Assembly (NCBI GenBank): GCA_030696045.1
Contig: JAUYNO010000048.1
Location: 62,001-126,000, forward strand
Direction: 5' to 3'
DNA from: Stagnimonas sp.
Lineage (GTDB): Bacteria; Pseudomonadota; Gammaproteobacteria; Nevskiales; Nevskiaceae
DNA: 64,000 nt
This document shows, in pieces, positions 15,610-30,844 of the stretch. Within the stretch, counting starts at the first letter, position 1. Every line of letters starts with the position of its first letter. The translations under genes were made by a program, and so were the position numbers. Below the pieces are notes generated by a model. It worked only from the letters and a program-made list of their open reading frames with translations, made no database searches and was not told the origin of the DNA.

Positions 15610-17805
15610 CTACGGCGCGATCGCGGGGCGGAGCATGGGCGGCCGCTGGGCTGCCGGCGAAGACGCCAGCGGCACGGCCGAGAGTGCCGCCCGCAGTTCG
15701 GACGTGCTCAGTATCTCTGAAAGGATTCGCGGAGCAGCGTCCCGGGTGTAGATCACGTACAGCGGGACGCCGCTGCGGCCAAGCGCCCCCAGTGCGGCTG
15801 TAATCGCGGGGTCGCGCAGCGTCCAGTCGGCGCGCAACAGCGCCACGTCCCTGGCGGCGAGATCGGCCAGGACCTCAGGCTTCTGCAGCACCGTCTTCTT
15901 GTTGTACTGGCATGTGACGCACCAGGCAGCGGTGAAATCGACAAACACCGGGCGCCCGCTGGCCAGCAGCTGCTCGACCCGGCCCGACTCCCAAGGTTGC
16001 CAAACGGCATCACTCGCTGCCACAACCCGCTGCGGCAGAGCGACAGCGACCTGGCCGGCCAGCAGCCAAGCGAACCCGGCCGTCCACGCTACCGCGATCG
16101 TGCCGATGATCACCCGCGCGCGGCCCGGCAAGCCCAGGCTCCAGGCCAGCATGCTGACGGCGACCAGGACCACCAGCAGGGCGCTGGCGGCATTGATCCC
16201 GCTTTGCTGCCCCAACACCCACAAGAGCCACACCACTGCGGCGAACATCGGGTAGGCCATCAGCTTGCGGAAGGTCACCATCCACTCACCGGGGCGGGGC
16301 AGCAGGCGCGCAACGGCCGGGACCCAGCTGGCGACCAGATACGGCAATGCCATGCCGGCGCCCAGCGCCGCGAAGATCAACAGGGCCTGAGCGGCTGGCA
16401 GCCCTACGGCAAATCCCAGCGCGGCGCCCATGAATGGTGCCGTGCAGGGGGACGCCACCACCACCGCCAGGACTCCGGACAGAAAGGCGTTCAACACTGG
16501 ATGACTGCTCTGCAGCGGAGCCAAGCGACTGGGAACGAGCTGGCGGACCTCGAACACGCCTGCAAGGTTCAGGCCGATCAGCGTGAATAACACGGCCAGC
16601 GCGGCGACCACGCCGGGCATCTGCAACTGGAACCCCCAACCGAGCTGCTGCCCGACACCGCGCAGCGCCACGACGAGCAATCCAAGCGCCGCAAACGCCG
16701 CGACCACCCCGGCCGAGTACGCCGCCCCGTCGAGACGCCGGGCCCGCTGGTCGCTGGCATGCTGGGTGAAGCCGACCACCTTGATCGCCAGTACGGGGAA
16801 AACACAGGGCATCAGGTTCAGGATCAGTCCGCCGAGCAGCGCGCCCAGCAAGGCGGCCGCGAACGTCATCCTCGCGCCCGATTCGGCCGCCGCGGCGTTG
16901 TTGCGCAGCGCTTCTTGCAGGGCTGGCGACACAGCCACCGGCGCGGCGGTCGCAGGCCATGTGCCTTGCACCCGAGCGTCGATGCTCCAGCCCTGGTTCC
17001 CCTGTGTCAGCACGATCGGCATCACGTCTGGACTTTGGCTGCGTTGCGGCGAAAGCGGGACCTGCGCGGTCCAGACCTGGCCGTCCCAGGACTGGCTCCA
17101 TTTTGCGGAAGTCTCAATCACTTCCGCGGTCTCGGGAAAGAACTCCAGTGGCTTGCCCCGAAGGCCCGCAGGCAGACCGCTGACCCGAAGCCGCAAGGCA
17201 TTCCTATTGAGCGTGGCGGTTGCCTGACCCGCCAGCGGCTTGGGTTGCGCGGCGAAACTCGCCTGGAAGACGGGGCCGTGCAGCGCCGTCGCGCTCTTGG
17301 CCGGAATCGCGAGCGAGAATTCGCCCTCCTCGGGGATGCACTCCCTGCGGCACACCAGCCAAGACGCCTTGAGCTTGACCTCCAGCGCGCCACCCAGGAC
17401 CGAGGGCTTGAATTCCGGCGCGATGGTCAGGGGCACCGGCAACAGCACGGTGTGCTCGTAGCCGTAGTTGATCAGCGTGCCGATCGGATGCTTGCTGGGC
17501 GTTGGCCACGCGATCTCGCCCGCCAGTACGCCGGCGGGCAGCTTCCATTCAAGCTTCGTGGGAAGTCCGGAGTCACCGGAATTTTTCCAATACGAATGCC
17601 ACTCCGGCTGATGCGCGAGTTGCAGGCCGACCCAGACCGGCTTACCGGGCTCGACGCCCTCGGGCGCATGGGCCAGAAGTTCTGCGCGCGTCCGCTCGGT
17701 CACCACCACGCTTTTACCGCCGGACTGGGCCGATGCCGCGCCGCCCCATAGCAGGAAAAGCAGCATGAGGAGGCGGGCGGTGAGGGACGTAGGTGGCGTG
17801 AACAT
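15610..17805 (-). CDS. DsbD/ScsB-type protein-disulfide reductase
   Basis: 731 residues. A signal peptide (about 1-26) precedes a periplasmic DsbD-alpha/ScsB-like domain (about 30-300) with the pair LVCRRECIPEEG. A membrane core of about eight helices follows (310-600; cytochrome c biogenesis DsbD family; PCVFPVLAIK and SPCTAPFMGAALG carry the transmembrane Cys). A C-terminal thioredoxin domain has FVDFTAAWCVTCQYNKK (CVTC near 631-634). It would carry electrons from cytoplasmic thioredoxin to periplasmic disulfide proteins. The start at 17805 lacks a good SD. It is divergent from the sterol desaturase operon. Partners are probably the thioredoxin-fold proteins at 27-31 kb. Confidence 0.85.
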   Translation of the reverse strand: MFTPPTSLTARLLMLLFLLWGGAASAQSGGKSVVVTERTRAELLAHAPEGVEPGKPVWVGLQLAHQPEWHSYWKNSGDSGLPTKLEWKLPAGVLAGEIAWPTPSKHPIGTLINYGYEHTVLLPVPLTIAPEFKPSVLGGALEVKLKASWLVCRRECIPEEGEFSLAIPAKSATALHGPVFQASFAAQPKPLAGQATATLNRNALRLRVSGLPAGLRGKPLEFFPETAEVIETSAKWSQSWDGQVWTAQVPLSPQRSQSPDVMPIVLTQGNQGWSIDARVQGTWPATAAPVAVSPALQEALRNNAAAAESGARMTFAAALLGALLGGLILNLMPCVFPVLAIKVVGFTQHASDQRARRLDGAAYSAGVVAAFAALGLLVVALRGVGQQLGWGFQLQMPGVVAALAVLFTLIGLNLAGVFEVRQLVPSRLAPLQSSHPVLNAFLSGVLAVVVASPCTAPFMGAALGFAVGLPAAQALLIFAALGAGMALPYLVASWVPAVARLLPRPGEWMVTFRKLMAYPMFAAVVWLLWVLGQQSGINAASALLVVLVAVSMLAWSLGLPGRARVIIGTIAVAWTAGFAWLLAGQVAVALPQRVVAASDAVWQPWESGRVEQLLASGRPVFVDFTAAWCVTCQYNKKTVLQKPEVLADLAARDVALLRADWTLRDPAITAALGALGRSGVPLYVIYTRDAAPRILSEILSTSELRAALSAVPLASSPAAQRPPMLRPAIAP

Positions 17806-17921
17806 GGAAGGGACAGGAATTGCGGGGCGCGCGATGCACGCCGTGGGACGGGACTATAGGTGCATTCCGTGCGCGGATTGCCAGCAGCCTCGGCCCGCCG
17901 GGGGTCTCTACTCAGGGTCAC

Positions 17922-17952
17922 TTGACTCTACCGCAGCTAGAGGGTTTCCAAT
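17922..17952 (+). promoter_or_regulatory. MerR-type (PbrR-like) promoter of desaturase-nadE
   Basis: TTGACT (17922-17927), a 19-bp spacer with CTACCGCAGCTAGAGGG, and TCCAAT (17947-17952). It is closely similar to the promoter of pbrA in spacing and sequence (CTAGAGG, TCCAAT). The downstream start codon is at 17981 with GAGGAAAGAAG as ribosome-binding site. Confidence 0.8.
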
Positions 17953-17980
17953 CCCATCTGAACCCTTGTGAGGAAAGAAG

Positions 17981-19216
17981 ATGAGTACGAAAGAACGTCC
18001 CTTCCTGGAGACTGTCGTCCGGTATGGCAGCTACCCGCTGATACTTGGCGCCACCGCCCTGGTGCTCTTCGGCGGGCTCGCTGCCGGCTGGCCGTATTTC
18101 CCGACGGTGCCGCTGACCGTGGCCGCCGCCCTCGCTTCAGTCGCCCTGCTAGAGCGGCGGCTCCCCTTTCACGCTGCCTGGGCTCGCGACCACCGGGACA
18201 GCATTTGCGACGCGATCCACGCAGTGGTCAACCTCATCGTGCTCCTCGCCGTCCACGGCGTTGTTGCTGCCCTGGCGCCGATGTGGTCGGCCGGGACATG
18301 GTGGTCTGATCAGTGGCCGCTTTGGGCGCAGGCCCTCGCCGTCGGTCTGGTGCTCGATCTGAGCCTCTACAGCGTACATTGGCTGAGTCATCGGGCAGCC
18401 TGGCTCTGGCAGTTCCACGCAATTCACCACAGCTCGGAACGCCTCTACTGGCTCAACGGGGAGCGCCGACACCCCTTGCATGCCGGGATGATGGCCGCGC
18501 CCGGCTTGATCGCCGTGGTGTTGATGGGGGCACCCGCACTGGCCGTCGGAGCATGGCTCGGCCTGCTGGCGGTGCACCTGGCCTTCCAGCACTCCAACCT
18601 GGACTACCGGGTCGGGCCGCTGCGCTTCGTGATCGGCGCCGCTGAAGTCCACCGCTGGCATCACAAGCGCGAGTACGAAGACGCGCAGGTCAACTACGGC
18701 GAGTTCTGGATGTTCTGGGACCATTTATTCGGCACCTTCCGGCTGCCCAAGCACAAGCTGGCCGCCGACGAAGTGGGGCTGAAGGACAGGGACTTTCCGA
18801 TGGACTACGGACCGCAGCTGGTCTACCCCTTCCGTAGCCCGCCAGTGGCGACAGACGCTTCCGCCGGGGACTACGCGCTTGCCCGCGCCGCATTCGTGCG
18901 CGAGACGAGCCTCGCGGCCTCTCGCGAGGCCGCCGGCGATCTGCGTGCTGCATGGCGTGCGCATGAGCTTGGACACATCATGTCCCAGCCCTACCTTGGC
19001 CTGCACCTGCGCAGTCACGCGGCGATGCTCGGCCTGGCGTGCAGGACTCGCGATTATTCGGAGGTGGTGGCGCAGGTCGTCCGTCTCGCGCTGGCGCCCG
19101 TGGGCCACGCGCTGGGCCGCACCCCGCCCCAGAATGTCGGCACCGGGCGCTTTGGCGTGATGGAGCACGGCACGTGGCCGTCGGAGCTGGACCCGATCAC
19201 CTTCCAGCGCCGATAA
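17981..19216 (+). CDS. sterol desaturase/fatty acid hydroxylase fused to DUF3703
   Basis: 411 residues. Residues about 20-255 form a fatty-acid-hydroxylase-superfamily membrane enzyme. It has TM helices and the three His clusters that bind a di-iron centre: HWLSH near 131, HAIHH near 146 and HRWHH near 224, followed by FWDHLFGTFR. The last about 105 residues (HELGHIMSQPYLGLHLRSH, then LGRTPPQNVGTGRFG) match DUF3703, found as a separate gene at 58420. The enzyme presumably oxidises a membrane lipid or related substrate. Control by a PbrR-type promoter ties it to metal stress. nadE follows after 10 bp. Confidence 0.8.
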   Translation: MSTKERPFLETVVRYGSYPLILGATALVLFGGLAAGWPYFPTVPLTVAAALASVALLERRLPFHAAWARDHRDSICDAIHAVVNLIVLLAVHGVVAALAPMWSAGTWWSDQWPLWAQALAVGLVLDLSLYSVHWLSHRAAWLWQFHAIHHSSERLYWLNGERRHPLHAGMMAAPGLIAVVLMGAPALAVGAWLGLLAVHLAFQHSNLDYRVGPLRFVIGAAEVHRWHHKREYEDAQVNYGEFWMFWDHLFGTFRLPKHKLAADEVGLKDRDFPMDYGPQLVYPFRSPPVATDASAGDYALARAAFVRETSLAASREAAGDLRAAWRAHELGHIMSQPYLGLHLRSHAAMLGLACRTRDYSEVVAQVVRLALAPVGHALGRTPPQNVGTGRFGVMEHGTWPSELDPITFQRR

Positions 19217-19226: not shown

Positions 19227-20060
19227 ATGACGAAAGAACAGAGCCGCATTGCCGCCGAGCTGGGCGTCTACCCGCACTTCGATGCGTCAGCGGAGATCGT
19301 CAGGCGCACGCAGTTCCTCGTGGAGTACGCGCGAGCCGCCACCGCAGGGTCGCTTGTGCTTGGGATCAGCGGTGGAGTGGATTCGAGCGTCGCCGGGCGC
19401 CTTTGCCAACTCGCGGCAGAGCAGCTGCGCTCATCGGGGATGCCGATTCGCTTCATCGCGATGCGGCTGCCGTATGGGGTGCAGGTCGACCAGGCTGACG
19501 CGCAGCGGGCGGTATCCTTCATCGATCCGGACGAGACACTGGACGTAGACATCAAGCCTGCCGCCGACGCGATGCTCGCGCAGTTGAGAGCCAGCGGACT
19601 CAAGTTCAATGACCACTGGCAGGAAGACTTCGTGCTCGGCAACATCAAGGCGCGGCAGCGCATGATCGCGCAGTACGCAGTTGCGGGCGCAACGGGCGGG
19701 CTCGTGGTCGGAACAGACCATGCCGCCGAGGCGGTGATGGGCTTCTTCACCAAATTCGGCGACGGCGGGTTCGATCTGAGCCCGCTGGGCGGTCTCACCA
19801 AACGACGCGTCCGCGCCTTGGCTTTGGCGCTCGGCGGCGACGAGCAGTTGGCCCAAAAGGTCCCCACGGCAGATTTGGAGTCCATGCAGCCACTCCGCCC
19901 CGATGAGGCCGCTTTGGGCGTCAGCTACGACACGATCGACGACTTCCTGGAAGACAAAGAGGTGGACTTGGCAAGCGCCGATGTCATCGTGCAGACCTTC
20001 CGCCGCACGGCCCACAAACGCGCCTTGCCCGCCGTCCCGGCGCCTCAGCGCGCCGCTTGA
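19227..20060 (+). CDS. nadE: NH3-dependent NAD+ synthetase
   Basis: 277 residues, the usual size of the ammonia-dependent NadE without a glutaminase domain. Seen: the PP-loop SGGVDSSVAGRL (about 47-58), [32 protein letters not shown] and KVPTADLE. It converts deamido-NAD to NAD with ATP and ammonia in the cytosol. It lies 10 bp after the desaturase gene, so it is likely on the same metal-induced transcript. A broken relative is found at 45106-45555. It may raise NAD(P) supply for the desaturase or for thiol reduction; that is inference. Confidence 0.9.
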   Translation: MTKEQSRIAAELGVYPHFDASAEIVRRTQFLVEYARAATAGSLVLGISGGVDSSVAGRLCQLAAEQLRSSGMPIRFIAMRLPYGVQVDQADAQRAVSFIDPDETLDVDIKPAADAMLAQLRASGLKFNDHWQEDFVLGNIKARQRMIAQYAVAGATGGLVVGTDHAAEAVMGFFTKFGDGGFDLSPLGGLTKRRVRALALALGGDEQLAQKVPTADLESMQPLRPDEAALGVSYDTIDDFLEDKEVDLASADVIVQTFRRTAHKRALPAVPAPQRAA

Positions 20061-20063: not shown

Positions 20064-20462
20064 TCAGGCGGGCTCGCCCAAGCTGCTGAGAATGCCGCAA
20101 TCGCGCGCGGTCCGAGCGGTATCGCAGGAGCGGCGCAGCTCAATCAACTCGCGCTCCAGCTCCCGCAGTTCCTTGATCTTGGCTCGCACCTGGGCGATAT
20201 GGGAGTCCACAAGGGCATTCACCTCGCCGCAGTCCAGCTCCGGCCGATCCCGGAAGCACAGCAGCTGCCGGATTTCGTCCAGGGTCATGTCCTTGGCCCG
20301 GCAGCGGCGGATGAACAGCAGGCGCTGCAGCTGGGCATCGTCGTACAGCCTGAAATTGCCCTCGCTGCGCGCCGGCTCGAGAAGCAGGCCCTCGGACTCG
20401 TAAAAGCGCACCGTCTGCACCAGGCAGTCCGCTTTTTTGGCCAGTTCACCGATCCGCAGCAT
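20064..20462 (-). CDS. pbrR: PbrR-like MerR-family lead regulator
   Basis: 132 residues. A winged helix-turn-helix at the N-terminus (LRIGELAKKADCLVQTVRFYESEG, given here in family form) is followed by a coiled dimer helix (about 80-112) and a metal loop. Cys78 (LDCGEV), Cys113 (RSCDTA) and Cys122 (RDCGIL) occupy the positions used by PbrR691 to bind Pb(II); Cys13 matches Cys14 of PbrR. It is divergent from pbrA, and the MerR-type promoter lies between them. Expected to activate promoters with 19-bp spacers, probably all four of that type around this island. Confidence 0.9.
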   Translation of the reverse strand: MLRIGELAKKADCLVQTVRFYESEGLLLEPARSEGNFRLYDDAQLQRLLFIRRCRAKDMTLDEIRQLLCFRDRPELDCGEVNALVDSHIAQVRAKIKELRELERELIELRRSCDTARTARDCGILSSLGEPA

Positions 20463-20480: not shown

Positions 20481-20511
20481 TTGACTCTATATCAACTAGA
20501 GGTTGTCCAAT
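20481..20511 (+). promoter_or_regulatory. MerR-type promoter of pbrA operon
   Basis: TTGACT (20481-20486), a 19-bp spacer with CTATATCAACTAGAGG, and TCCAAT (20506-20511). The layout matches the classic pbrA promoter. It lies between pbrR and pbrA. The predicted transcript start is about 40 nt before the ATG at 20557. Confidence 0.85.
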
Positions 20512-20556
20512 CACGGCATGCGGGGAAAGCCCCTGCCAACGGAGAGTGAGCGATTT

Positions 20557-23472
20557 ATGAACAAAGACCCTTCCAATTCATGCGGCTGCTCGGGCGGAAA
20601 TGGCCAACAGGCGCGCTGCGCCAAGGAATCGGCCAGCACCGAGACCACTGTTTTCCATGTGAGCAACATGGATTGCCGCAACGCGGAAGCACTGGTGCGG
20701 CGCACGCTAGAGGCCATGCCCGGTGTCGAGCGGCTGGACTTCGATCTTCCGCAGCGCAAGGTGACCGTTTCGCACAGCGTGGCCACGATCGATGCCCTGG
20801 AGCAGGCACTGAACTCAGTGGGCATGAAGGCGCAGGCCGTCCGTGATGCCGCGGTGCTGACGACGTACCGCGTCGAGAACATGGACTGCCCGAGTGAGGA
20901 GAAACTCATTCGCTCGCACCTGGGCGCGGTCGAGGGAGTCCAGTACTTGGACTTTGACCTGGCCGAACGCACCTTGTCGGTAAGGCACTTGGCCGAGGCG
21001 CGCGCGCAGATGGAGCAGGTGCTGGCCTCGATTGGCATGCGTGCCAAGGAGCAGGCCGTGAGCCCCGGCGGCCCGGTGGCGACTGCGGCTACGGCGGTGG
21101 TCAACTCCCGGCCGCAAGCCCAGCCGACCATACCGGTGTCCGTGACGCCCGGCGGAGAGCGCGTGACGTACCGGATCGAGAACATGGACTGCCCGACGGA
21201 AGAAGCGCTGATCCGCGACCGCTTGGGCAAAGAGCCAGGCGTGACTGGGCTGGACTTCAACCTGATGCAACGGGTGCTGGGCGTGCAGCACACGCTGCCC
21301 TCGACGCAGCCGATCGAGAAGGCGCTGGCTTCCATCGGGATGCGGGCCGAGCGGCAGGGCCTTCAGACGGTCACCACGCTGCTGCGCATTGCCAAGATGG
21401 ATTGCCCGACCGAAGAGGGTTTGATCCGCGGCAAACTCCAAGGCATGCCGGGCGTGCAGAGCCTGGACTTCAACCTGATGCAGCGCACCCTCACCGTCCG
21501 GCACGCGCCTGAAGCGATCAAGCTGGCGGTCGAAGCGATCGAATCGCTGGGGATGGAGGCCGAGGTGCAGAAGACCGACGAGCCGCGCGATCCTCAGGCG
21601 CCCGTGCAGCAGACCCACTGGTGGCCGATGGCGGTTTCCGGCATTGCGGCCGTGATGGCCGAAGGCGTGTACTGGGTCAACGACGGCAACCACTGGGCCG
21701 TGATCGTGCTGGCCCTGGTTTCGATCTTCACCGGCGGCCTGAGCACCTACAAGAAGGGCTGGATCGCGCTGAAGAACCGCAACCTGAACATGAACGCCCT
21801 GATGTCCATCGCTGTCACGGGCGGCATGGCGATCGGCCACTGGCCCGAGGCGGCCATGGTCATGTTCCTCTTCGCGCTGGCCGAGGTGATCGAGGCGAAG
21901 TCGCTGGACCGCGCCCGCAATGCCATTCGCGGGCTGATGGACTTGGCGCCAGAGACCGCCACCGTGCGGCAGGCCGACGGCTCGTGGAAGGAACTGCCGG
22001 CCAAGGAGGTGGCCAAAGGCGCGGTGGTCCGCGTACGTCCTGGCGAGCGAATCGCACTGGACGGCCTGATCACGGCTGGCCGCTCGGCCATCAACCAGGC
22101 CCCCATCACCGGCGAAAGCCTTCCGGTCGAGAAGGCCGAGGGCGACCAGGTGTTCGCCGGCACCATTAACGAGACTGGCTCCTTTGAGTACAAGGTGACC
22201 GCGGGCGCGAGCGACTCGACGCTCGCCCGCATCATCCATGCGGTGGAGTCCGCGCAGGGCAGCCGCGCGCCCACGCAGCGCTTCGTCGACCAGTTCGCGC
22301 GGGTCTATACCCCGGCTGTGTTCGCTGTGGCCGTTCTGGTTGCGGTCGTTCCGCCGCTCGTTTTCGGCGGCGCCTGGTTTGACTGGATCTACAAGGCGCT
22401 GGTGCTGCTGGTGATCGCCTGTCCCTGCGCCCTGGTCATCTCGACGCCCGTGACGATCGTCAGCGGCCTGGCCGCTGCCGCCCGGCGCGGCATCCTGATC
22501 AAGGGCGGCGTCTACTTGGAGGGCGGGCGCAAGCTCAAGGCGCTGGCCTTGGACAAAACCGGCACGCTCACCCACGGCAAGCCCGAGCAGACCGACTTTC
22601 TGCCGCTGGTCGGCGATGCGAACGAGGTTGCCACATGGGCAGCAAGCCTCGCTGCACGCTCGGACCATCCGGTATCCCAGGCCATCGCCCGCAAGGCGAA
22701 CCGCGACGGCGTCGCTCTGCACGAAGTCGATGACTTCACTGCCTTGCCCGGGCGTGGCGTGCTCGGCCGCATTGCCGGCCGCACGCTGCACATGGGCAAT
22801 CACCGGCTCGCCCAGGAGCTCGGCCTGAGCGAAGCCGCCCTTCAGTCGCAGTTGGAGGCCCTTGAGCGCCAAGGCAAGACGGCAATCCTGCTAATGGACG
22901 ATGCCACCGTGCTCGGTATCTTCGCCGTGGCCGACACAGTGAAGGAAACCAGCCGCGAAGCCGTGGCCGACCTGCAGGCTCTGGGCGTGCGCACGCTGAT
23001 GCTGACCGGGGACAACCAGCACACGGCCGCCGCCATCGCCTCCCAGGTCGGGATCTCCGAAGCCCGCGGCGACCAGCTCCCCGAGGACAAGCTCAAGACC
23101 ATCGAGAGTCTGGTCGGCGGTAAGGGCCAGGTGGGCATGGTAGGCGACGGCATCAACGATTCGCCCGCGCTCGCGCGCGCTGACATTGGTTTCGCCATGG
23201 GCGCGGCCGGCACCGACACGGCGATCGAAACCGCGGACGTCGCCCTGATGGACGACGATCTGCGCAAGATTCCGGCCTTCATCCGGCTGTCGCGCACCAC
23301 TGCGTCGATCCTCACACAGAACATCGTGCTGGCCCTCGGGATCAAGGCGGTGTTCCTCGCCCTGACGTTCACCGGGCATGCCACGATGTGGATGGCGGTC
23401 TTTGCCGACATGGGGGCGAGCCTGCTGGTTGTCTTCAATGGCCTGCGCCTGTTGAAACTCAAGACGGCCTGA
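20557..23472 (+). CDS. pbrA: PbrA/CadA-type P1B ATPase with four HMA domains
   Basis: Start taken at ATG 20557 (GGAGAGTGAGCGATTT upstream), because the longer frame would begin inside the promoter. The 971-residue protein has a Cys-rich N-terminus (SCGCSGG) and four tandem HMA domains with NMDCRNAE, NMDCPSEE, NMDCPTEE and KMDCPTEE. Eight TM helices, the CPC motif in VIACPCALVIS (about 620), phosphorylation motif DKTGTLTHG (about 666), HP locus SDHPVSQA and hinge GDGINDSPALA follow. It exports Pb/Cd/Zn divalent ions from the cytosol. CadA/ZntA relatives normally have one or two HMA domains, so four is unusual. Confidence 0.9.
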   Translation: MNKDPSNSCGCSGGNGQQARCAKESASTETTVFHVSNMDCRNAEALVRRTLEAMPGVERLDFDLPQRKVTVSHSVATIDALEQALNSVGMKAQAVRDAAVLTTYRVENMDCPSEEKLIRSHLGAVEGVQYLDFDLAERTLSVRHLAEARAQMEQVLASIGMRAKEQAVSPGGPVATAATAVVNSRPQAQPTIPVSVTPGGERVTYRIENMDCPTEEALIRDRLGKEPGVTGLDFNLMQRVLGVQHTLPSTQPIEKALASIGMRAERQGLQTVTTLLRIAKMDCPTEEGLIRGKLQGMPGVQSLDFNLMQRTLTVRHAPEAIKLAVEAIESLGMEAEVQKTDEPRDPQAPVQQTHWWPMAVSGIAAVMAEGVYWVNDGNHWAVIVLALVSIFTGGLSTYKKGWIALKNRNLNMNALMSIAVTGGMAIGHWPEAAMVMFLFALAEVIEAKSLDRARNAIRGLMDLAPETATVRQADGSWKELPAKEVAKGAVVRVRPGERIALDGLITAGRSAINQAPITGESLPVEKAEGDQVFAGTINETGSFEYKVTAGASDSTLARIIHAVESAQGSRAPTQRFVDQFARVYTPAVFAVAVLVAVVPPLVFGGAWFDWIYKALVLLVIACPCALVISTPVTIVSGLAAAARRGILIKGGVYLEGGRKLKALALDKTGTLTHGKPEQTDFLPLVGDANEVATWAASLAARSDHPVSQAIARKANRDGVALHEVDDFTALPGRGVLGRIAGRTLHMGNHRLAQELGLSEAALQSQLEALERQGKTAILLMDDATVLGIFAVADTVKETSREAVADLQALGVRTLMLTGDNQHTAAAIASQVGISEARGDQLPEDKLKTIESLVGGKGQVGMVGDGINDSPALARADIGFAMGAAGTDTAIETADVALMDDDLRKIPAFIRLSRTTASILTQNIVLALGIKAVFLALTFTGHATMWMAVFADMGASLLVVFNGLRLLKLKTA

Positions 23473-23477: not shown

Positions 23478-24101
23478 ATGCAGGCGCCGGACACCGCGAC
23501 GCAGTGGACGAGACACTGGCTGTATGACTGGGGCGGCGCCAACGTGGATCTCTTCCTGGCTATCCAGCGCACCCTGCCTGACGGCTGGATCTGGCTGCCC
23601 GAAGTCCTGAGCGCAATCGGCAGCTACTGGGGCGCGCCGGCGATCGTGGTCCTGCTGCTGGTTTGGCGGCGAATTCAGGGTCGGCAAGGGGCGACTACGC
23701 TCACGGTGCCGTTGTGCAGATTTGTTTTGGGGTTGACGCTTGCCCTCACCACCGCCGCTTTCGCCAAGGCCCTGTTCGCGCTGCCGCGCCCGTTCGCGGT
23801 GCTCGGTCACGCGGTCTACCGGGCCGCCTCCGCACCGGACACCCGCTACACCATGCCCAGCGGCCACTCGGTCTACATCGGCGTCCTGGTGGCGGCGCTC
23901 TGGCCCGTGTTGGGTTGGTCCGGCAGGATCGGCCTGCTGCTGCTCGCCGCGGCCGTGGGCTGGTCGCGCATCGTTCTGGGCGCGCACTTTCCGGTGGACG
24001 TCGTCGCTGGCCTGGCGCTTGGCGGGGCGTGCGTCGCCGCGGCGGGTCCGTGGGCTTACCGCGTCGCGCGGAATTCGCGACTCGCAGGAGCCAGCCGGTG
24101 A
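23478..24101 (+). CDS. pbrB: PAP2-family phosphatase (PbrB-like)
   Basis: 207 residues with about five TM helices and the lipid phosphatase signature: KALFALPRP, PSGHS and SRIVLGAHFPVD (catalytic His residues in the second and third motifs). ATG 23478 lies six bases after pbrA. PbrB-type enzymes are undecaprenyl-pyrophosphate phosphatases thought to supply phosphate that traps exported lead as phosphate outside the membrane. Gene order pbrR-pbrA-pbrB supports this. The downstream gene starts inside its stop (GTGA). Confidence 0.85.
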   Translation: MQAPDTATQWTRHWLYDWGGANVDLFLAIQRTLPDGWIWLPEVLSAIGSYWGAPAIVVLLLVWRRIQGRQGATTLTVPLCRFVLGLTLALTTAAFAKALFALPRPFAVLGHAVYRAASAPDTRYTMPSGHSVYIGVLVAALWPVLGWSGRIGLLLLAAAVGWSRIVLGAHFPVDVVAGLALGGACVAAAGPWAYRVARNSRLAGASR

Positions 24102-24670
24102 AGGTCGGCTTCCAGGCCGCACTGCGCGCCGCCGACGGCATCGACTGGGCGAATCGTCGGCTCGCTTTTGTCGTTCGCTGGGGCTTGCTGGCCAACGCCG
24201 TGCTGATCGCGGGCAACGCCATCAGCCGCAAACTCTTCGGTGTCGCGTCCTCCACCATGTACGACGTGCAACCGCACTTCTTCGCGGCGGCGGTGCTGCT
24301 GATGGCGGCATACACCTTCAAGCGCGACGAGCACGTGCGCATCGATGTGTTCTCCGGGTTCCTCGGGCAGCGCGGCTTGGCGTGGCTCGATCTTGCGGGC
24401 ATCGCGGTGGTACTGCTGCCGCTGTGCCTGGCTGCGGTCTGGGTGACCTGGCCTGACTTCGTCACCTCGGTTGTCACCGGCGAAACACGCGCCAGCCGCG
24501 AAAGTCTCAGCAGGTTCCCGGCCTGGATCATGAAAGGCATGATCCCGCTCGGCTTCCTGAGCCTGGCAGCGCAAGGCGCCGCCGAGGCGGTGCGCTGCCT
24601 CGCCTTCCTGGCTGGTGTCGCGCCGAGGCCACTGGCGGCCGAGCATCCAGACCGGCGGGGATTCGCATGA
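24098..24670 (+). CDS. TRAP transporter small membrane subunit (DctQ-like)
   Basis: 190 residues from GTG 24098, overlapping the pbrB stop. Four TM helices; motif KRDEHVRIDVFSGFL matches the DctQ signature K(R)(K/D)EH(I/V)xxD. It pairs with the large subunit that starts inside its own stop (ATGA at 24667). No periplasmic substrate-binding DctP gene is found in the window, so either the binding protein is encoded elsewhere or this transporter works differently here. Confidence 0.85.
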   Translation: MKVGFQAALRAADGIDWANRRLAFVVRWGLLANAVLIAGNAISRKLFGVASSTMYDVQPHFFAAAVLLMAAYTFKRDEHVRIDVFSGFLGQRGLAWLDLAGIAVVLLPLCLAAVWVTWPDFVTSVVTGETRASRESLSRFPAWIMKGMIPLGFLSLAAQGAAEAVRCLAFLAGVAPRPLAAEHPDRRGFA

Positions 24671-26082
24671 GCCCGGACCTGCTTGCGCCGCTGATGTTCA
24701 CGACGCTGGTCGCCGTGCTGCTGGCCGGGTTCCCGGTGGCTTTCTCGCTGGCCGCCGTGGCGGCGGCATTCGGCGTGCTCGGTGTGGCGCTCGGGCATTT
24801 CAACGCGTCCTTCCTGCTCGCGATGCCGCTGCGCCTGCAGGGTGTCTTCAACAGCGACAACTTCCTGGCGGTGCCTCTGTTCGTCCTCATGGGCCTGATC
24901 TTGGAACGCACGGGCGTCGCCGAAGACACGCTGGTTGCGCTCGGCCGGCTGTTCGGACGAGCGCCGGGCGGACTGCTCTACGCCACCATCATCGTCGGCG
25001 CGGTGCTGTCAGCAATCACAGGCTTCGTCTCGGCTTCTGTCATCGCCATGGGCCTGATCGCGCTGCCGGCGATGCTCAAGGCGGGCTACGACGCACGGCT
25101 GGCGACCGGATCAATTGCCGCCGCCGGCACGCTGGCCCAGATGCTGCCTCCCAGCCTGGTACTGATCGTGCTGGCCGAGCAGGTCGAAGTGCCGCTGATC
25201 GACATCTTCCATGCCGCGCTGCTGCCCAGCGCCACCCTGGTCGGGCTCTACCTGCTTTTCATACTGTTCGCGACAGGATTGCGGTCGTCGCTGGCTCCGC
25301 CGATCGCCGCCGTGGCGGACGTGTCCCGCAAGCAGGTGTGGCTCGAAGCGGCCGTCGCTGCCGGCGTGCCCCTTGGCCTCATTCTCGCCATCCTCGCTTC
25401 GATCTACTTCGGAGTCGCGACGCCCACCGAGGGCGGGGCCATCGGCGTCTGCGGGGCGCTGGCGATTGGCGCAGTGCGCCGGCGGCTTTCCGGAGGCCGT
25501 CTCAGCCAGGCCCTGACAAGCACGGGCGTGCTGTGTTCCAGCGTGATCTTCCTGCTGCTCGGCGCTTCGTTCTTCACGCTCGTCTTCCGGGGATTCGACG
25601 GCCAGGTGTGGATCGAGGGCATCTTCAAACACTTGCCGGAAGGACAAGCACCGTTCCTCTTCGCCGTCACGTTCGGTATCTTCCTGCTCGGCTTCTTCCT
25701 CGACTTCTTCGAGATCGCGTTTATCGTCGTCCCCCTGATCACACCCGTTGCACGCAAACTCGGAGTTGACATGGTGTGGCTGACTGTGATGATCGCGGTC
25801 GTCCTGCAGACTTCCTTCATGCATCCGCCATTCGGCATCGCGCTGTACAACCTACGCAGCGTCGCCCCCGCCGCGGTACGCACCACGCAAATCTACGTGG
25901 GTGCAATCCCGTTCCTGGCGATCCAACTGCTGATGGTAGGTATTCTCGTGGCCTTCCCGAGTCTCGCGACCACACAGCAGGTCCAGGTGCGGGCGACCGA
26001 CCAGGAAATCGAGGATGCCCTGCGACCTCCACCCGCCGAACCTGCGACTGAGCCGGAAGTCCCTCAAGCCGAAAAGAAGTAG
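24667..26082 (+). CDS. TRAP transporter large permease (DctM-like)
   Basis: 471 residues, about 12 TM helices. Family features: FPVAFSLA near the start, GLILERTGVAEDTL, a long stretch of Gly/Ala-rich helices with LPPSLVLIVLAEQ, and MHPPFGIALYNLRSVAP near the end. TRAP transporters normally take up organic acids with Na+ or H+. In a metal operon it may import a carboxylate chelator or counter-ion, or have been recruited for another role; no sequence evidence decides this. The C-terminal tail (PPPAEPATEPEVPQAEKK) is Pro/Glu-rich. Confidence 0.85.
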   Translation: MSPDLLAPLMFTTLVAVLLAGFPVAFSLAAVAAAFGVLGVALGHFNASFLLAMPLRLQGVFNSDNFLAVPLFVLMGLILERTGVAEDTLVALGRLFGRAPGGLLYATIIVGAVLSAITGFVSASVIAMGLIALPAMLKAGYDARLATGSIAAAGTLAQMLPPSLVLIVLAEQVEVPLIDIFHAALLPSATLVGLYLLFILFATGLRSSLAPPIAAVADVSRKQVWLEAAVAAGVPLGLILAILASIYFGVATPTEGGAIGVCGALAIGAVRRRLSGGRLSQALTSTGVLCSSVIFLLLGASFFTLVFRGFDGQVWIEGIFKHLPEGQAPFLFAVTFGIFLLGFFLDFFEIAFIVVPLITPVARKLGVDMVWLTVMIAVVLQTSFMHPPFGIALYNLRSVAPAAVRTTQIYVGAIPFLAIQLLMVGILVAFPSLATTQQVQVRATDQEIEDALRPPPAEPATEPEVPQAEKK

Positions 26083-26580
26083 ATGAACCATCCTGTCCGA
26101 AAAGCGCAGTGGTATGCACTCGCGATCATTGCATTCGTCGGCGACCAGGCTTCCAAGACCTACATCGACATGACGACCCCCTTGGGGTGGTCGCATGAAG
26201 TCACGTCCTTTTTCAACTTGGTTCACGTTCTCAATCCCGGCGCGGCGTTCAGCTTCCTCGCTGGCGCGGGTGGCTGGCAGCGGTGGTTCTTCCTGGTGAT
26301 CGCTCTCGCGGCGTCGGTGTGGCTGGCATGGCTGCTGTCCCGCCCGCTGCGAAGACTGGAGGGCCTTTCGTACAGCCTCATCTTGGGCGGCGCCCTGGGC
26401 AACGCGTTCGACCGCGCCGTGCGCGGCCAAGTCATCGACTACCTCGACTTCCACCTGCGCGGCTTGCACTGGCCGGCCTTCAACATCGCCGACATGGCCA
26501 TCACTGCCGGGGCGATCGCGCTGGTGGCTCATTCGCTGATGAGCGTCGAGAACCCCGCCGCAGCAAAAGAGTCCCAGTGA
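26083..26580 (+). CDS. lspA: lipoprotein signal peptidase (PbrC-like LspA)
   Basis: 165 residues, starting at the base right after the DctM stop. Four TM helices, with the catalytic Asp pair in GNAFDRAVRGQVIDYLDF and FNIADMAI, and the conserved LNPGAAFSFLAG. LspA cleaves prolipoprotein signal peptides. In the known pbr operon the LspA-like protein PbrC accompanies PbrA/B. Here a lipoprotein-type thioredoxin (27196) is encoded just downstream as a possible substrate. Confidence 0.9.
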   Translation: MNHPVRKAQWYALAIIAFVGDQASKTYIDMTTPLGWSHEVTSFFNLVHVLNPGAAFSFLAGAGGWQRWFFLVIALAASVWLAWLLSRPLRRLEGLSYSLILGGALGNAFDRAVRGQVIDYLDFHLRGLHWPAFNIADMAITAGAIALVAHSLMSVENPAAAKESQ

Positions 26581-26605
26581 ATTGGGGCACCCTGGAAATT
26601 TCAAC

Positions 26606-27154
26606 ATGGGCACGACGCAAGACATCGATCTGAAGAAAGAGGTTCATGGCATTCGCACGGCTGCGGTGAAGGCGTTGCTGCTCACGGCTGCCTGCTTCGC
26701 GGCCGGATACCTGATGCTTCCCAAGTACGTGCTCTTTCCGACGACAACGTTTGATGCCCTGGTCTTCACCCTGCGTGTTGATCTCTTTGTCTTGCTGTGG
26801 GTTGTAGTGGCCGTTGGGCTCGTTTCGCATGCCCGAAGGCAGTCGACCGCCGACATCCGCGGGGCGGCTTTTGGGGTTCCCAGCGATTCCATAAGAGTCA
26901 AGATCGCCTTCCTGCAGAACACGCTCGAACAGGCCTTCGTCGCCATCGGCACGCATCTCGTGTTCAGCACCCTCTTGGCCGGGGCCGCCTTGTCGCTGGT
27001 GGTCGTGGCAACGGCGCTGTTCGCGGTCGGCCGCGTCACCTTCTACCGTGGCTATCCGCATGGTGCGGCGGCGCGCGCGTTTGGCATGGTCACCACGGTC
27101 ATCCCCACCATAGTCATCCTGGCCCTCAGCTTGGTGTCGCTTGCCTGGCTTTGA
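26606..27154 (+). CDS. MAPEG-family membrane protein
   Basis: 182 residues, four TM helices. Family traits: LRVDLFVLLWVV in the first half, FLQNTLEQAFVAIGTHLV (the MAPEG N-x-x-E-Q-type helix) and RVTFYRGYPHGAAARAFGM before the last helix. MAPEG proteins act in eicosanoid and glutathione metabolism in eukaryotes; bacterial members often have glutathione-linked activity. A thiol link would fit this operon but is not shown. ATG 26606 is preferred; the preceding gene ends at 26580. Confidence 0.75.
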   Translation: MGTTQDIDLKKEVHGIRTAAVKALLLTAACFAAGYLMLPKYVLFPTTTFDALVFTLRVDLFVLLWVVVAVGLVSHARRQSTADIRGAAFGVPSDSIRVKIAFLQNTLEQAFVAIGTHLVFSTLLAGAALSLVVVATALFAVGRVTFYRGYPHGAAARAFGMVTTVIPTIVILALSLVSLAWL

Positions 27155-27195: not shown

Positions 27196-27684
27196 ATGTC
27201 GATCTTGCGAAAATTCTTGGCGGCGATCGCAGTTGTCCTGACACTTGCAGGTTGCCTGAACTCGTCGGCTGCCCCGCAAAGTTCATTCACACTGCTGGAC
27301 GGCTCGACCAGGACCACGGCCGACCTCAAAGGGGAGGTCGCCCTCATCAACTTCTGGGCGACAAGTTGCACCACGTGCGTGGCGGAGATGCCCATGCTGG
27401 TGGCCACCTACGAGAAGTTCCGCGGCCTCGGATACGAAACTGTTGCTGTGGCCATGAGCTACGACCCGCCGACCTATGTCGTCAACTTCGCTCAAACGCG
27501 CAAGCTCCCGTTCCCGGTCGCCATCGACAACACCGGCGTGGTTGCGAAGGCGTGGGGCGACGTCAACGTCACCCCCACAACGTTCCTCGTGAACAAGCGA
27601 GGGGAGATCGTCAAACGCTTCGTGGGAAAGCCAGACTTCGCCGAGCTCCATCAACTCATCGACCGGCTGCTCTCCGAAAGCTGA
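27196..27684 (+). CDS. TlpA/ResA-like thioredoxin lipoprotein
   Basis: 162 residues. Lipobox LTLAGC (Cys about 20) predicts an outer-leaflet, periplasm-facing lipoprotein. The thioredoxin fold has active site WATSCTTCVAEMP (CTTC) and cis-Pro in NVTPTTFLV. Start at ATG 27196 with CTGGAG five bases upstream; the GTG at 27190 is less likely. A reducing role in the periplasm, fed by the DsbD-like protein at 15610, is plausible. It lies in the pbr operon direction, 41 bp after the MAPEG gene. Confidence 0.85.
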   Translation: MSILRKFLAAIAVVLTLAGCLNSSAAPQSSFTLLDGSTRTTADLKGEVALINFWATSCTTCVAEMPMLVATYEKFRGLGYETVAVAMSYDPPTYVVNFAQTRKLPFPVAIDNTGVVAKAWGDVNVTPTTFLVNKRGEIVKRFVGKPDFAELHQLIDRLLSES

Positions 27685-27715
27685 GCAGGATCATTTTCTT
27701 CATCCACTTTTCATC

Positions 27716-28354
27716 ATGATCAAAAGACGTGCTTTCTGCAGCCTTGTGCTCCCCTTGACCCTCACCGTACATACCGCCTCGCGTGCCCAGGAACAGTTCG
27801 TCCCGGGCAAGCACTACTTGGAGGTTTCTCCACGACAAACCACCAAAGACCCGAACCAGGTTGAAGTGCTGGAGTTCTTCGCCTACAGCTGCTCGCACTG
27901 CAGTGCGTTCGAGCCTGCGCTGGAGGCATGGCTGAAGAAATTACCGCGGGACATCCTGTTCCGCCGCATCCCGGTCGCCTTCCGTGACGACCTGGTGGTC
28001 CATCAGCAGCTCTACTTCGCCCTGGAGGCACTGGGTCTTGTCGAGCAGTTGCATGGGAAGGTGTTCCAGGCAATCCACGCTGAGAAGCAACGGCTTGCAA
28101 CGCCCGCGGATATCGCCGCCTTCGCCGCAAAAAACGGCGGCTATGGCAAGCGCCTCGTGGAGACCATGAGCTCGTTCAGCGTGGCCAGCAAGGTCCGACA
28201 GGCGACGGCCCTGGCCGCTGGCTACAAGATCGAAGGCACACCGTCCCTCGGCGTTGACGGCAGATGGCTGACCTCCGGCTCTCTGGCCGGCTCTAACGCG
28301 CGCTCGCTGGCCGTCGCCGACCACCTGATCGCGCTGGCCAAGAAAGCTCGCTGA
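27716..28354 (+). CDS. dsbA: DsbA-type thiol:disulfide interchange protein
   Basis: 212 residues with signal peptide (MIKRRAFCSLVLPLTLTVHTASRAQ). DsbA fold: FFAYSCSHCSAFEPALE (CSHC active site near 61-64), an inserted helical domain, and cis-Pro loop KIEGTPSLGVDG. It would oxidise cysteine pairs in periplasmic proteins and be re-oxidised by DsbB, encoded by the converging operon (29727). Last gene of the plus-strand pbr operon. Confidence 0.9.
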   Translation: MIKRRAFCSLVLPLTLTVHTASRAQEQFVPGKHYLEVSPRQTTKDPNQVEVLEFFAYSCSHCSAFEPALEAWLKKLPRDILFRRIPVAFRDDLVVHQQLYFALEALGLVEQLHGKVFQAIHAEKQRLATPADIAAFAAKNGGYGKRLVETMSSFSVASKVRQATALAAGYKIEGTPSLGVDGRWLTSGSLAGSNARSLAVADHLIALAKKAR

Positions 28355-28362
28355 TCGAGCCA

Positions 28363-28415: not shown

Positions 28416-28441
28416 AGTCCGGTGATCATGAGCGGCTGGTC

Positions 28442-29062
28442 TCACACCTCCTTCAGCAGCCTGCGCACGTCGGAAGCCAGCGCCTCGGGCTCCAAGCCGT
28501 AGCTTGCGTAAAGACGAACGCGCCCCCGCGCGTCGAAAACGTAGGTGACTGCCGAGTGCTCCATCACATAGGCGCTCGGTGTCTTGCCTTCTAGCTTCTT
28601 GTAGTGGATCTTGAATTCCTTCGCGATCTCGGCAAGCTGCTGCTCGGTCGGCACGAGGGCAAGGTGCTGCGAATCGAAGTTGCGCATGTACGCTTGAAGT
28701 ACTTGCTGCGTATCACGCTGGGGATCGACCGTTATGAAGATCACCTGAAGCCTGTCGCCATCGCTCCCAAGCAGTTGCTTCACCCGCCCCATCTCTGTCA
28801 GCGTGGTGGGACATACATCGGGGCACCGAGTGAATCCGAAGAACACCGCGACGACGCGGCCCCGGAAATCCTTCAGCGTGCGCAACTGCCCTGTCTGGTC
28901 CGGTAGCGAGAAGTCACGGGCATAGTCCGCTCCTGTGATGTCGACGCTCTTGAACTCGCGATTCGGCTCGGGCAGCCAGAATGCCAAGCCCCCGGCTGCG
29001 AGCGCGGAGCCCCCAGCGATCAGCAGCGCGCGGCGCGGGATGGGCGATGCAGCCTCGCTCAC
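28442..29062 (-). CDS. Sco1/SenC-type copper chaperone / thiol protein
   Basis: 206 residues from GTG 29062, which overlaps the upstream stop as GTGA. N-terminal membrane anchor or Tat-like signal (IPRRALLIAGGSALAAGG). Sco motif FFGFTRCPDVCPTTLTEMG (C-x3-C) and the conserved His in VMEHSAVTYVFD. Sco proteins bind Cu and help assemble the CuA site of cytochrome oxidase, or act as thiol-disulfide reductants. Last gene of the minus-strand operon. A much longer upstream ORF in this frame is a shadow. Confidence 0.9.
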   Translation of the reverse strand: MSEAASPIPRRALLIAGGSALAAGGLAFWLPEPNREFKSVDITGADYARDFSLPDQTGQLRTLKDFRGRVVAVFFGFTRCPDVCPTTLTEMGRVKQLLGSDGDRLQVIFITVDPQRDTQQVLQAYMRNFDSQHLALVPTEQQLAEIAKEFKIHYKKLEGKTPSAYVMEHSAVTYVFDARGRVRLYASYGLEPEALASDVRRLLKEV

Positions 29063-29730
29063 GGCGCGACCCCAGCTTTGCCGTAGGCGCGATCGACCTC
29101 TTCGCTCACCAGCTCCTTCAGCTCGTCCGCCCCAAACTGTTTGAGCGGCCGGCCGTTGACGAAGAAGCCCGGGGTGCGTGTCACGGCGAGCGCCTTGGCG
29201 TCCGCCAGGTCCTGCTCCACCCGAGCGCGCACGGGTGCAGAAGCTGCATCCTCGCGCGCCTTGCGCAAGTTCAGGCCAGTTCCGTCGACGACGTCCCAGA
29301 TCAGATCCGGCCGCGGATTGTGGTCCGCGCCCCAGGTACTTTGCTCGCGCAGCAGTCTTTGCGTCACTGGCCAGAACAGGCCCTGCAGGCGAGCTGCTTC
29401 CATCACGGCCACGGCCGTATCGGCGCCGGCGTGGAAGGGCGTGTAGCGGACGACCAGCTGGACACGGCCTCGGTGCGAGTCGACGATGTCCTTGACCAGT
29501 GAATAGAACGCGCGACAGGTTTCGCACGCAGGATCCAGGAACTCGACGATCCGAACCTTGGCGTCGGCGGGGCCGTAGATCGGCGAATGTGGGCGGTTGA
29601 ACACCGAGTCGGGCTTTGCCGCCAGCTCCACCAGGCGTTGCTCTTCCAGCCACGAGTAGGCAAACACCGCCACCACGAAGGCCAGCAAGAGCACAACAGC
29701 GCTGCCGACCATGACGCGCCGCCGCTTCAT
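29059..29730 (-). CDS. membrane-anchored DsbA-family thioredoxin
   Basis: 223 residues with an N-terminal TM anchor (VMVGSAVVLLLAFVVAVFAY). DsbA-like active site EFLDPACETCRAFY (CETC) and cis-Pro loop VTRTPGFFVNGRPL. It resembles the disulfide oxidoreductases often encoded with a dedicated DsbB. Its start ATG overlaps the dsbB stop (ATGA), so the pair is probably a matched oxidase couple. Confidence 0.85.
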   Translation of the reverse strand: MKRRRVMVGSAVVLLLAFVVAVFAYSWLEEQRLVELAAKPDSVFNRPHSPIYGPADAKVRIVEFLDPACETCRAFYSLVKDIVDSHRGRVQLVVRYTPFHAGADTAVAVMEAARLQGLFWPVTQRLLREQSTWGADHNPRPDLIWDVVDGTGLNLRKAREDAASAPVRARVEQDLADAKALAVTRTPGFFVNGRPLKQFGADELKELVSEEVDRAYGKAGVAP

Positions 29731-30164
29731 GCGCGTACTCCTTGCCGACGCGCGGCTTCAAGCAATCCGATGATCACGGTGAACGCGAGCAGCGACATGA
29801 GAGGGATGGTGAGGAATCCGACCAGGCGCAAATCGACCTCGGCACATGACAAGCCCGTGCTGCATGGCTGCAGGTTTTCCGGAATCCAGCCGGTGTACAG
29901 GAGGAAGTGATACCCCGCCACCAGCCACCCGGCGGCGGCCAGTCCCAGTCCATAGAGAACGCTGCCGACGTCTTCACGGTACAGCGCGATGCCCAAGACA
30001 AGGACCAAAGGGAACATCGCGACGCGCTGGTACCAGCACAGCAGGCACGGCTGCAGCAGCATCACCTCGCTGAAGAAGAGGCTGCCGAGTGTGCCGGCGA
30101 GGCTGGCAAGCCACGCAACCAACAGCAGGGTCCAAGCCCGGCGAGGCATGTCATGCGCCGCCAC
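29727..30164 (-). CDS. dsbB: DsbB-type disulfide bond formation protein
   Basis: 145 residues, four TM helices. First Cys pair LQPCLLCWYQR (CLLC, about 39-42) and second pair in LQPCSTGLSCAEVDLR. It re-oxidises DsbA proteins using quinones. Start GTG 30164 has no strong SD; ATG a few codons downstream is an alternative. It sits between a reducing TlpA-like gene and an oxidising DsbA-like gene in one operon. Confidence 0.9.
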   Translation of the reverse strand: MAAHDMPRRAWTLLLVAWLASLAGTLGSLFFSEVMLLQPCLLCWYQRVAMFPLVLVLGIALYREDVGSVLYGLGLAAAGWLVAGYHFLLYTGWIPENLQPCSTGLSCAEVDLRLVGFLTIPLMSLLAFTVIIGLLEAARRQGVRA

Positions 30165-30190
30165 GGATGCGGCGATGGCGTATGGGGTGT

Positions 30191-30799
30191 TCAGGTCGAT
30201 TCCTTCAGGTAAGACTGGATCAGATCAAGTGCCGGATTCTCGTCCCACGCGGCGGCGCCGGAGAGCCGGCCGATCTCCCGACCCCGGGCATCGATCAGAA
30301 GCGTTGTCGGAACCGTGGTCACTCCCAGCGTGCTCAACGCCAGCCCCTGAGTATCCACATACCCCCGCAGCGTGGTGGCCTTGATCTGCCGCAGGAAGGC
30401 TTCGGCCTTGGCGGGCGAGTCGAGCGCCAGTGTCACCACGACAAATTTGTCGCCGCCCAAGCGCGCGTTCAGCCGGTCAAGGGCGGGCATTTCTTCCAGG
30501 CAAGGTGGGCACCAGGTGGCCCAGAGATTCAGCAGGACCACCCGGCCGCGGAACTCGCGCAGGCTCGTCGGTCCGCGAGCGGGGTCCGAGAAACGCAAGT
30601 CGGGAACCTCACGCGGCGCGGCCCATCGCTGGAACTTCTGGCCGCTGAGCTCAATCACCTGCGCGGCCGCTGGCTGGCTGTCCCGGGCGCGTTGTCCGGG
30701 GCCGCCTGCGCGGTCCATAGCGTCGCGGGCCAGGAAACCCAAGACAGCAACGGCTGCCAAGCCTAAGGCAACAACAGAGACTCGCAGAACCTTGAACAT
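30191..30799 (-). CDS. TlpA-like periplasmic thioredoxin, first gene of PbrR-type operon
   Basis: 202 residues from ATG 30799. N-terminal anchor (VLRVSVVALGLAAVAVLGFLA), then a thioredoxin fold with LNLWATWCPPCLEEMPALDRL (CPPC) and cis-Pro VTTVPTTLLIDARG. The -10 element of its MerR-type promoter ends only 15 bp upstream of the ATG and no SD is present, so the mRNA may be nearly leaderless. The upstream extension of the ORF to 31009 would run through the promoter and is rejected. Confidence 0.85.
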   Translation of the reverse strand: MFKVLRVSVVALGLAAVAVLGFLARDAMDRAGGPGQRARDSQPAAAQVIELSGQKFQRWAAPREVPDLRFSDPARGPTSLREFRGRVVLLNLWATWCPPCLEEMPALDRLNARLGGDKFVVVTLALDSPAKAEAFLRQIKATTLRGYVDTQGLALSTLGVTTVPTTLLIDARGREIGRLSGAAAWDENPALDLIQSYLKEST

Positions 30800-30813
30800 G
30801 ATAAATCCGCACG

Positions 30814-30844
30814 ATTGGACGGCCTCTAGCGGGTAGAGAGTCAA
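30814..30844 (-). promoter_or_regulatory. MerR-type (PbrR-like) promoter of the tlpA-dsbB-dsbA-sco operon
   Basis: On the minus strand: TTGACT (30839-30844), a 19-bp spacer with CTCTACCCGCTAGAGG, then TCCAAT (30814-30819). Both hexamers and the CTAGAGG half match the pbrA promoter. It drives four genes that encode only redox/chaperone proteins. Confidence 0.85.

Follow-up and report, generated by a model that had tools for sequence, protein, structure and literature searches.

Our study of a 64-kb stretch of a Stagnimonas sp. draft genome (contig JAUYNO010000048.1, positions 62,001 to 126,000; hereafter the window) showed a CadR/PbrR-type island at 14.9-30.9 kb that carries, besides the P1B-type ATPase gene pbrA, seven genes of thiol-disulfide chemistry, four of which form an apparent operon behind a near copy of the pbrA promoter. 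This is a recurring new variant of the CadR/PbrR resistance locus, parts of which were anticipated by earlier work. It probably is a horizontally acquired island of resistance to Pb and Cd, and possibly Cu. On balance, we favor the view that its CadR/PbrR-controlled accessory enzymes of envelope thiols and copper centers limit the attack of these metals on periplasmic cysteines.

The control of the minus-strand operon (tlpA, dsbB, anchored dsbA and sco) by a PbrR-type promoter is well supported by motif comparison. The divergent ATPase gene is preceded by a MerR-type promoter/operator with a 19-bp spacer (20481-20512, plus strand; TTGACT-N19-TCCAAT). Both hexamers and their spacing are retained ahead of the minus operon (30813-30844, minus strand), where 26 of 32 bases are as in the pbrA site, which supports the PbrR-like promoter proposed in the initial annotation. 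With the pbrA site as the only template, which makes the test non-circular, the best match reached 21/32 in 4.07 million reversed positions and 20/32 in 20 control loci, i.e., housekeeping DsbB loci of the window's order that were hand-picked from the higher-ranked matches with a preference for roomy contigs. The pbrA promoter footprinted in Cupriavidus metallidurans CH34 is described with the same TTGACT -35 hexamer and 19-bp spacer (PMC3431237). Two further PbrR-type operators, each with two mismatches, precede a short CDF exporter gene (15572-15592, minus strand) and a fatty acid hydroxylase/DUF3703 gene followed by an NAD synthase gene (17922-17942, plus strand). They score 19.0 and 23.3 bits, respectively, with a position weight matrix (PWM) that was built without the window's sites and retained one previously known site; the former has a poorer -10 and the latter again shares 26/32 bases with the pbrA promoter. 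A two-mismatch pattern derived from two of these four sites (those of pbrA and the minus operon) found exactly the four in the 4.28-Mb draft genome, all inside the island, and none when reversed. The regulator encoded next to pbrA (20064-20462, minus strand; cysteines 13, 54, 69, 78, 113 and 122) is a MerR-family sensor that clears the NCBIfam CadR-PbrR cut-off (TIGR02047, 168 against 151.45 bits), and it presumably binds the second promoter, ahead of tlpA, as well.

The seven thioredoxin-system genes named in the initial annotation are all open frames with agreeing Pfam families, they include both oxidising and reducing branches, and their active-site cysteines are intact. The minus operon begins with a TlpA (30191-30799; Pfam Redoxin, CPPC) for which TlpA entries rank first in a search of the PDB (1jfu, E 2e-29); it scores 142 bits with the TlpA model NF047696, below the cut-off of 230. 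Next on this strand come a BdbC-like DsbB (29727-30164; Pfam DsbB, E 9.8e-14) with both cysteine pairs (CLLC and C101/C107), a membrane-anchored DsbA (29059-29730; Pfam Thioredoxin_4, CETC) and a Sco/SenC protein (28442-29062; Pfam SCO1-SenC, E 3e-43, CPDVC) with a presumed GTG start. The DsbB scores 110.5 bits with NF002849, which we take to be the BdbC-type model (cut-off 124, not reached), and 34.2 bits with the DsbB equivalog NF002485; the closest solved structures to the anchored DsbA are 3gyk and BdbD (E 1.4e-13). The adjacency of a DsbA-fold protein with a CxxC motif and DsbB makes them a candidate oxidase pair, and the motifs of TlpA and Sco are of the kind that would serve copper-site assembly. 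On the plus strand, the pbrA run closes with a TlpA/ResA-like lipoprotein (27196-27684; Pfam Redoxin, CTTC, lipobox LAGC in the translation) and a soluble DsbA (27716-28354; Pfam DSBA, E 3.2e-14, CSHC). A DsbD/ScsB-like transmembrane thiol reductant carrier (15610-17805, minus strand; Pfam DsbD_N, DsbD_TM and Thioredoxin_7) with six cysteines (152, 156, 334, 454, 629 and 632) is a minus-strand gene of its own. The genes had been presented as a full module: all seven are indeed there, but they fall into three apparent transcription units, of which only two have recognized operators, and we therefore reject the reading as a single module.

The island's dsbB and sco have counterparts elsewhere in the genome. 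The window's dsbB is the second, divergent copy in its genome (G000), which also holds a housekeeping-type DsbB and two further near-full Sco matches. DsbB was found in 81 of the 85 genomes of the window's order, with two matches in three of them (G000, G029 and G078). The divergent second type occurs in G000 only; the pair in G029 consists of fragments and both matches in G078 are of the high-scoring type.

The neighborhood is not confined to this strain, a possibility that had been named as a test of the initial proposal and that is ruled out by genome and plasmid loci with metal genes. We scanned for relatives of the anchored DsbA with a five-sequence alignment, four members of which came from plasmids already known to carry metal genes, and kept the 80 best matches among 501 confirmed relatives, each with flanks of up to 10 kb. 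Metal-efflux or sensor genes (any match to PbrR, PbrA, CDF, CusA or CusB) were found in 37 of these 80 loci, which are not a random sample because they were selected by likeness to that alignment, against 1 of the 20 housekeeping DsbB loci. The profiles were built from window proteins and may let distant relatives escape. DsbB was found in 71 of the 80. The sole control locus with metal genes (L171, in G078) has MerR-family and ATPase frames no more than about 3 kb from dsbB. Metal genes also lie beside the pair in all eight plasmid records that were opened, chosen from 274 with a DsbB match and 1613 with a (mostly weak) DsbA match; the listed annotation of one of them (L013) is incomplete. 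This recurrence beside metal pumps, in bacteria unrelated to one another, suggests that resistance may include protection of the envelope besides efflux.

Some of these loci are very close to the island and others are rearranged. In the nearest relative (L017), both the pbr run and the minus operon are conserved, with proteins 71-91% identical to those of the island and a DctQ-DctM pair at about 91%, and cus genes lie beyond these units (59-88% identity). The MAPEG gene was not found there; a further ATPase is encoded between cus and tlpA, as is a MerR-family protein with 35% identity to PbrR, and the pbrR of L017 itself would fall outside the stretch examined. The operator and -10 ahead of its tlpA are recognizable, in a flank that aligns poorly upstream. 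Four loci from as many alphaproteobacterial families (L078, L080, L083 and L084) have an ATPase-CDF-Sco-LspA arm diverging from a DsbB-DsbA-CadR arm, with operators on both sides, and three of them have identical DsbA proteins, which indicates recent transfer. An Enterobacter cloacae plasmid of human source (L012, 8195-25995) carries CDF, lspA, dsbB, a dsbA-like gene, cus-type efflux genes and a second CDF, flanked on both sides by IS26 copies.

Operators accompany the redox genes in many of these loci. With a cut-off of 18 bits, a PWM found 64 sites in 86 sequences, none in the reversed ones and none in the 20 control loci; the matrix was trained on sites of the window and of L056, L077, L078, L080, L083 and L084, so that the counts at these loci are partly circular. 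Among the 22 non-window loci with an operator, the operator-headed unit includes a redox gene in 13, three of which are near-identical copies; the gene calling was crude and overlooks, e.g., the dsbB unit of L084. A CadR/PbrR-type site immediately precedes dsbB in seven loci (L016, L056, L074, L078, L080, L083 and L084).

What recurs with the pair is not the exact set of seven genes but LspA, Sco, PCu(A)C, CDF and CcdA. To count companions, we compared the 35 of the 80 loci that are metal-linked by these queries, which differ from those behind the 37, with 65 others (45 without metal genes and the 20 controls); Fisher p-values on such counts ignore relatedness. LspA was found in 12/35 metal-linked against 2/65 other loci, Sco in 13/35 against 2/65, PCu(A)C in 9/35 against 0/65 and CcdA in 8/35 against 0/65, and DUF411 in none of the 35. 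PCu(A)C is also present on six of the eight plasmid records (L013, L015, L016, L182, L183 and L184) and was not found in positions 14001-38500 of the window. The Dsb pair recurs with cus-type copper efflux genes as well. On a quickly built DsbA tree, where L064 sits on a very long branch, the metal label requires 13 changes (shuffled mean 28.7), at least seven of them forced by the starred branches. The link between pair and metal genes is thus clustered and was gained or lost several times.

How might such genes contribute to resistance? A single PbrR sensor would control several promoters of the island: one for pbrA-PAP2-dctQM-lspA-MAPEG-tlpA-dsbA, its near copy for the opposite tlpA-dsbB-dsbA-sco, and others for the short CDF exporter and the hydroxylase/NAD-synthase pair. 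Metal entry would then lead to the production of pumps together with another set of thiol enzymes for the envelope. As the pumps load the periplasm with thiol-seeking Pb and Cd, the anchored DsbA and the BdbC-like DsbB could reoxidise exposed cysteines and leave fewer ligands for these metals. Proteins of the TlpA and Sco families reduce and load the copper site of cytochrome oxidase, and DsbD can pass electrons to proteins of these types. Reducing power from TlpA, Sco and DsbD may reopen wrong bonds and keep the copper center of the oxidase assembled. The lipoprotein TlpA of the pbrA run is a possible client of the LspA encoded in the same run. The operon structure and the electron flow are predicted, a protective function of the set is plausible, and the thiol repair or metal binding proposed in the initial annotation is hypothetical. 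If this reading is true, protecting or replacing periplasmic targets would be an inherited part of resistance, the set being found again in alpha- to gammaproteobacteria on both plasmids and islands, and the Cd sensitivity of dsbA and dsbB mutants would become directly testable in a natural setting.

Several observations weigh against this reading. The site of the minus operon scores only 13.5 bits with the matrix built without window sites, against 13.8 bits for the best position of the reversed window, so that the case for this promoter rests on its likeness to the pbrA promoter and on the nearest relative. The ATG of its first gene lies about 8 bases past the expected transcription start, and no ribosome-binding site was seen. 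For dsbD, the operator scans of the window recognized no operator on its own strand. No metal gene was detected in 43 of the 80 anchored-DsbA loci, some of which are short contigs. Finally, an operator-first search of the 85 genomes found 29 sites in 21 of them, 22 leading to a CDF frame and none to a recognized Dsb gene, with a strict pattern that fails to find the sites of the window itself (0 in G000) and loci of at most 3 kb. The other cases include cus-like frames only (L107-L109), an ATPase frame (L111) and three loci without assignment (L112, L127 and L131). Set against the 13 of 22 loci above, this zero indicates that the redox branch is a repeated, not a general, extension of the CadR/PbrR regulon.

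The same genes may instead be metal-induced replacements for envelope enzymes poisoned by Pb, Cd or Cu, with no role in general thiol repair: Dsb oxidases, Sco, TlpA and PCu(A)C for the copper site of the oxidase, LspA, and a phosphatase of C55 pyrophosphate (PAP2/PbrB). The recurring partners LspA, Sco and PCu(A)C duplicate enzymes of the envelope, the genome holds the other DsbB and Sco copies described above, and Lnt and L,D-transpeptidases are each present on 2 of the 8 plasmid records. Still, we find this explanation rather unlikely: Lnt is found in 0 and L,D-transpeptidase in 1 of the 35 metal-linked genome loci, which shows that the wider kit is not general and leaves it unsupported; PAP2 is found in 2 of the 35 (with a single window query); and the TRAP, MAPEG and fatty-acid hydroxylase genes do not fit. 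The more general proposal, that CadR/PbrR-type islands are metal-switched maintenance kits of duplicate, possibly metal-tolerant copies of envelope enzymes, is correspondingly tentative. If it holds, resistance would combine the replacement of poisoned targets with efflux, and PbrC, perhaps also PbrB, would gain a role.

It is less probable still that the TlpA-DsbB-DsbA-Sco operon serves the adjoining cus-type efflux genes and copper handling, with its PbrR-like promoter reflecting cross-talk. The operon does adjoin cusC- and cusB-like genes (31452-34399) and a cusA-like frame that extends to 37566, and in six loci (L012, L029, L050, L061, L082 and L086) cusC-cusB lie downstream of DsbA on the same strand, as does cusA where the contig reaches that far. 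As chaperones of copper sites, Sco and PCu(A)C favor this explanation. So does the action of Scs thioredoxin-fold proteins in copper tolerance (PMC3672137). The explanation is at odds with the resemblance between the promoter of the operon and that of pbrA and with the CadR/PbrR-type sites directly ahead of dsbB in the seven loci listed above. That generic redox genes simply gathered in a mobile island without any part in metal resistance would suit the transposase and integrase to its left and the 43 loci without a detected metal gene, but is very improbable in view of the operator-headed redox units (13/22), the clustering of the metal label on the DsbA tree and the intact active sites.

The remaining genes of the island complete a pbr-like locus. 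Diverging from pbrR, the plus-strand run comprises pbrA, PAP2, DctQ, DctM, LspA, MAPEG, the TlpA-like lipoprotein and the soluble DsbA, with intergenic gaps of at most 41 bases, and it meets the minus operon tail to tail. PbrA (20557-23472; 971 aa; Pfam E1-E2_ATPase, Hydrolase and HMA) has several HMA domains at its N-terminus (three Pfam HMA stretches) and also matches NCBIfam heavy-metal P-type ATPase models. It is accompanied by a PbrB-like PAP2 phosphatase (23478-24101; Pfam PAP2, E 7.6e-19; presumed start) and a PbrC-like LspA signal peptidase II (26083-26580; Pfam E 8.7e-41), which are separate genes here, with the TRAP transporter genes dctQM between them (24110-26082; Pfam DctQ and DctM; the start of DctQ is not fixed). 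No adjoining binding-protein gene was seen for this DctQ-DctM pair, and we know of no pbr locus that contains one. A MAPEG-family membrane protein follows LspA (26582-27154; Pfam E 4.9e-6). PbrT and PbrD were absent from the genes identified in general scans, in which no search aimed at either. To the left of pbrR, the plus strand has the fatty acid hydroxylase-DUF3703 fusion (17981-19216; Pfam) and the NAD synthase (19227-20060; Pfam E 9e-58), and the minus strand has dsbD and the short CDF exporter (14899-15540; 213 aa; Pfam Cation_efflux, E 1e-12). The latter scores 65.3 bits with the NCBIfam CDF model (cut-off 82.35), aligning with positions 2-195 of 285, so that the match stops ahead of the C-terminal part of the model. 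Relatives of the hydroxylase in L018 and L019 have an operator-like site upstream too.

The left flank of the island contains a Tn3-type transposase (7449-9884, matching part of the domain only) and a DUF3701 tyrosine integrase (11312-13012). Further to the right, an 808-aa frame (42610-45036, minus strand) combines an NAD-dependent epimerase domain, SPW repeats and a domain of VKOR, a quinone-linked disulfide enzyme. A second metal block (51620-63083) has a MerR regulator, a P1B ATPase, a CDF with dimerisation domain, a two-component system, an RND adaptor with efflux-like neighbors and an operator-like site at 52198 (23 bits).

Among the closest known systems is the pbr operon of C. metallidurans CH34, which shares the PbrR-family sensor, the P1B ATPase, PAP2, LspA and the TTGACT hexamer with its 19-bp spacer, but whose genes as listed in PMC3431237 include no Dsb, TlpA or Sco; here two thiol genes end the pbrA run, and a second operon of four has a promoter resembling that of pbrA. 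The model described in that work is built around pumping and phosphate precipitation, with no role for PbrC. The cad region of C. metallidurans (cadA, cadC/LspA, cadR and CdfX) likewise has a short CDF and LspA near the ATPase and sensor genes; CdfX is described as a short CDF without cytoplasmic domain, cdfX is mainly under ZntR, and the word "disulfide" is nowhere in the main text (PMC11580412). In Mesorhizobium, cadA, a DsbD/CcdA gene, CDF and LspA are near in locus number and metal-induced (PMC3668242). The CcdA/DsbD-like gene next to cadA was induced by Zn (log2 4.07 in STM 4661) and Cd (log2 2.22 in STM 4661), CycY-, thioredoxin- and isomerase-like genes by Cd and less by Zn, and the role of the former "remains to be addressed" according to its authors. 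Neither an operator nor a DsbA-DsbB-Sco operon figures in that account.

Other work had tied disulfide enzymes to metals. Mutation of dsbA or dsbB makes E. coli Cd-sensitive, which the authors explained by binding of the metal to free thiols (PMC7598926), and a part in resistance to Zn and Cd has been ascribed to dsbA-dsbB of Burkholderia cepacia (Hayashi 2000, cited in PMC7008767). In full-text searches, which leave out most subscription literature so that absence from print is unproven, pbrR and dsbB never occurred in the same paper, nor did bdbC, bdbD and cadA. With pbrA, dsbA and "lead resistance" they found only a review that, in the sections concerned, treats them separately and describes no shared locus (PMC7008767); dsbA occurs only in the reference list of PMC7912247. 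The main text of a 2006 survey of MerR-type regulons contains none of "disulfide", "thiol" or "dsbB" (PMC1526738). To call the island an undescribed system, for which it was a candidate in the initial annotation, is too strong, since the Mesorhizobium genes, the B. cepacia pair and the Scs sets precede it (PMC3668242, PMC7008767, PMC3672137, PMC8900818).

Two systems resemble the redox genes themselves. Scs (suppression of copper sensitivity) thioredoxin-fold proteins are, as described, active in copper tolerance and share this tie with the present set (PMC3672137, PMC8900818). The island differs by its DsbB and Sco, its PbrR-type promoter and an anchored DsbA closer to BdbD (E 1.4e-13) than to 4xvw, presumably ScsC (1.1e-8), or to the copper-named DsbA-fold structures (5.6e-8 or weaker); its DsbB and Sco and the affinity of its DsbA lead us to reject an assignment to Scs. 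ScsB is DsbD-like and ScsD is TlpA-like, and the scs gene sets known to us are without DsbB and have ScsC as their DsbA-like protein. The genes of the BdbC-BdbD oxidase pair of Bacillus subtilis lie near cadA and copA. Like them, the DsbB and anchored DsbA of the island are an adjacent pair, whose DsbB is nearest to NF002849 (below its cut-off) and whose DsbA matches BdbD. Unlike them, they are found in an island of a Gram-negative bacterium, together with TlpA and Sco and behind a PbrR-type promoter.

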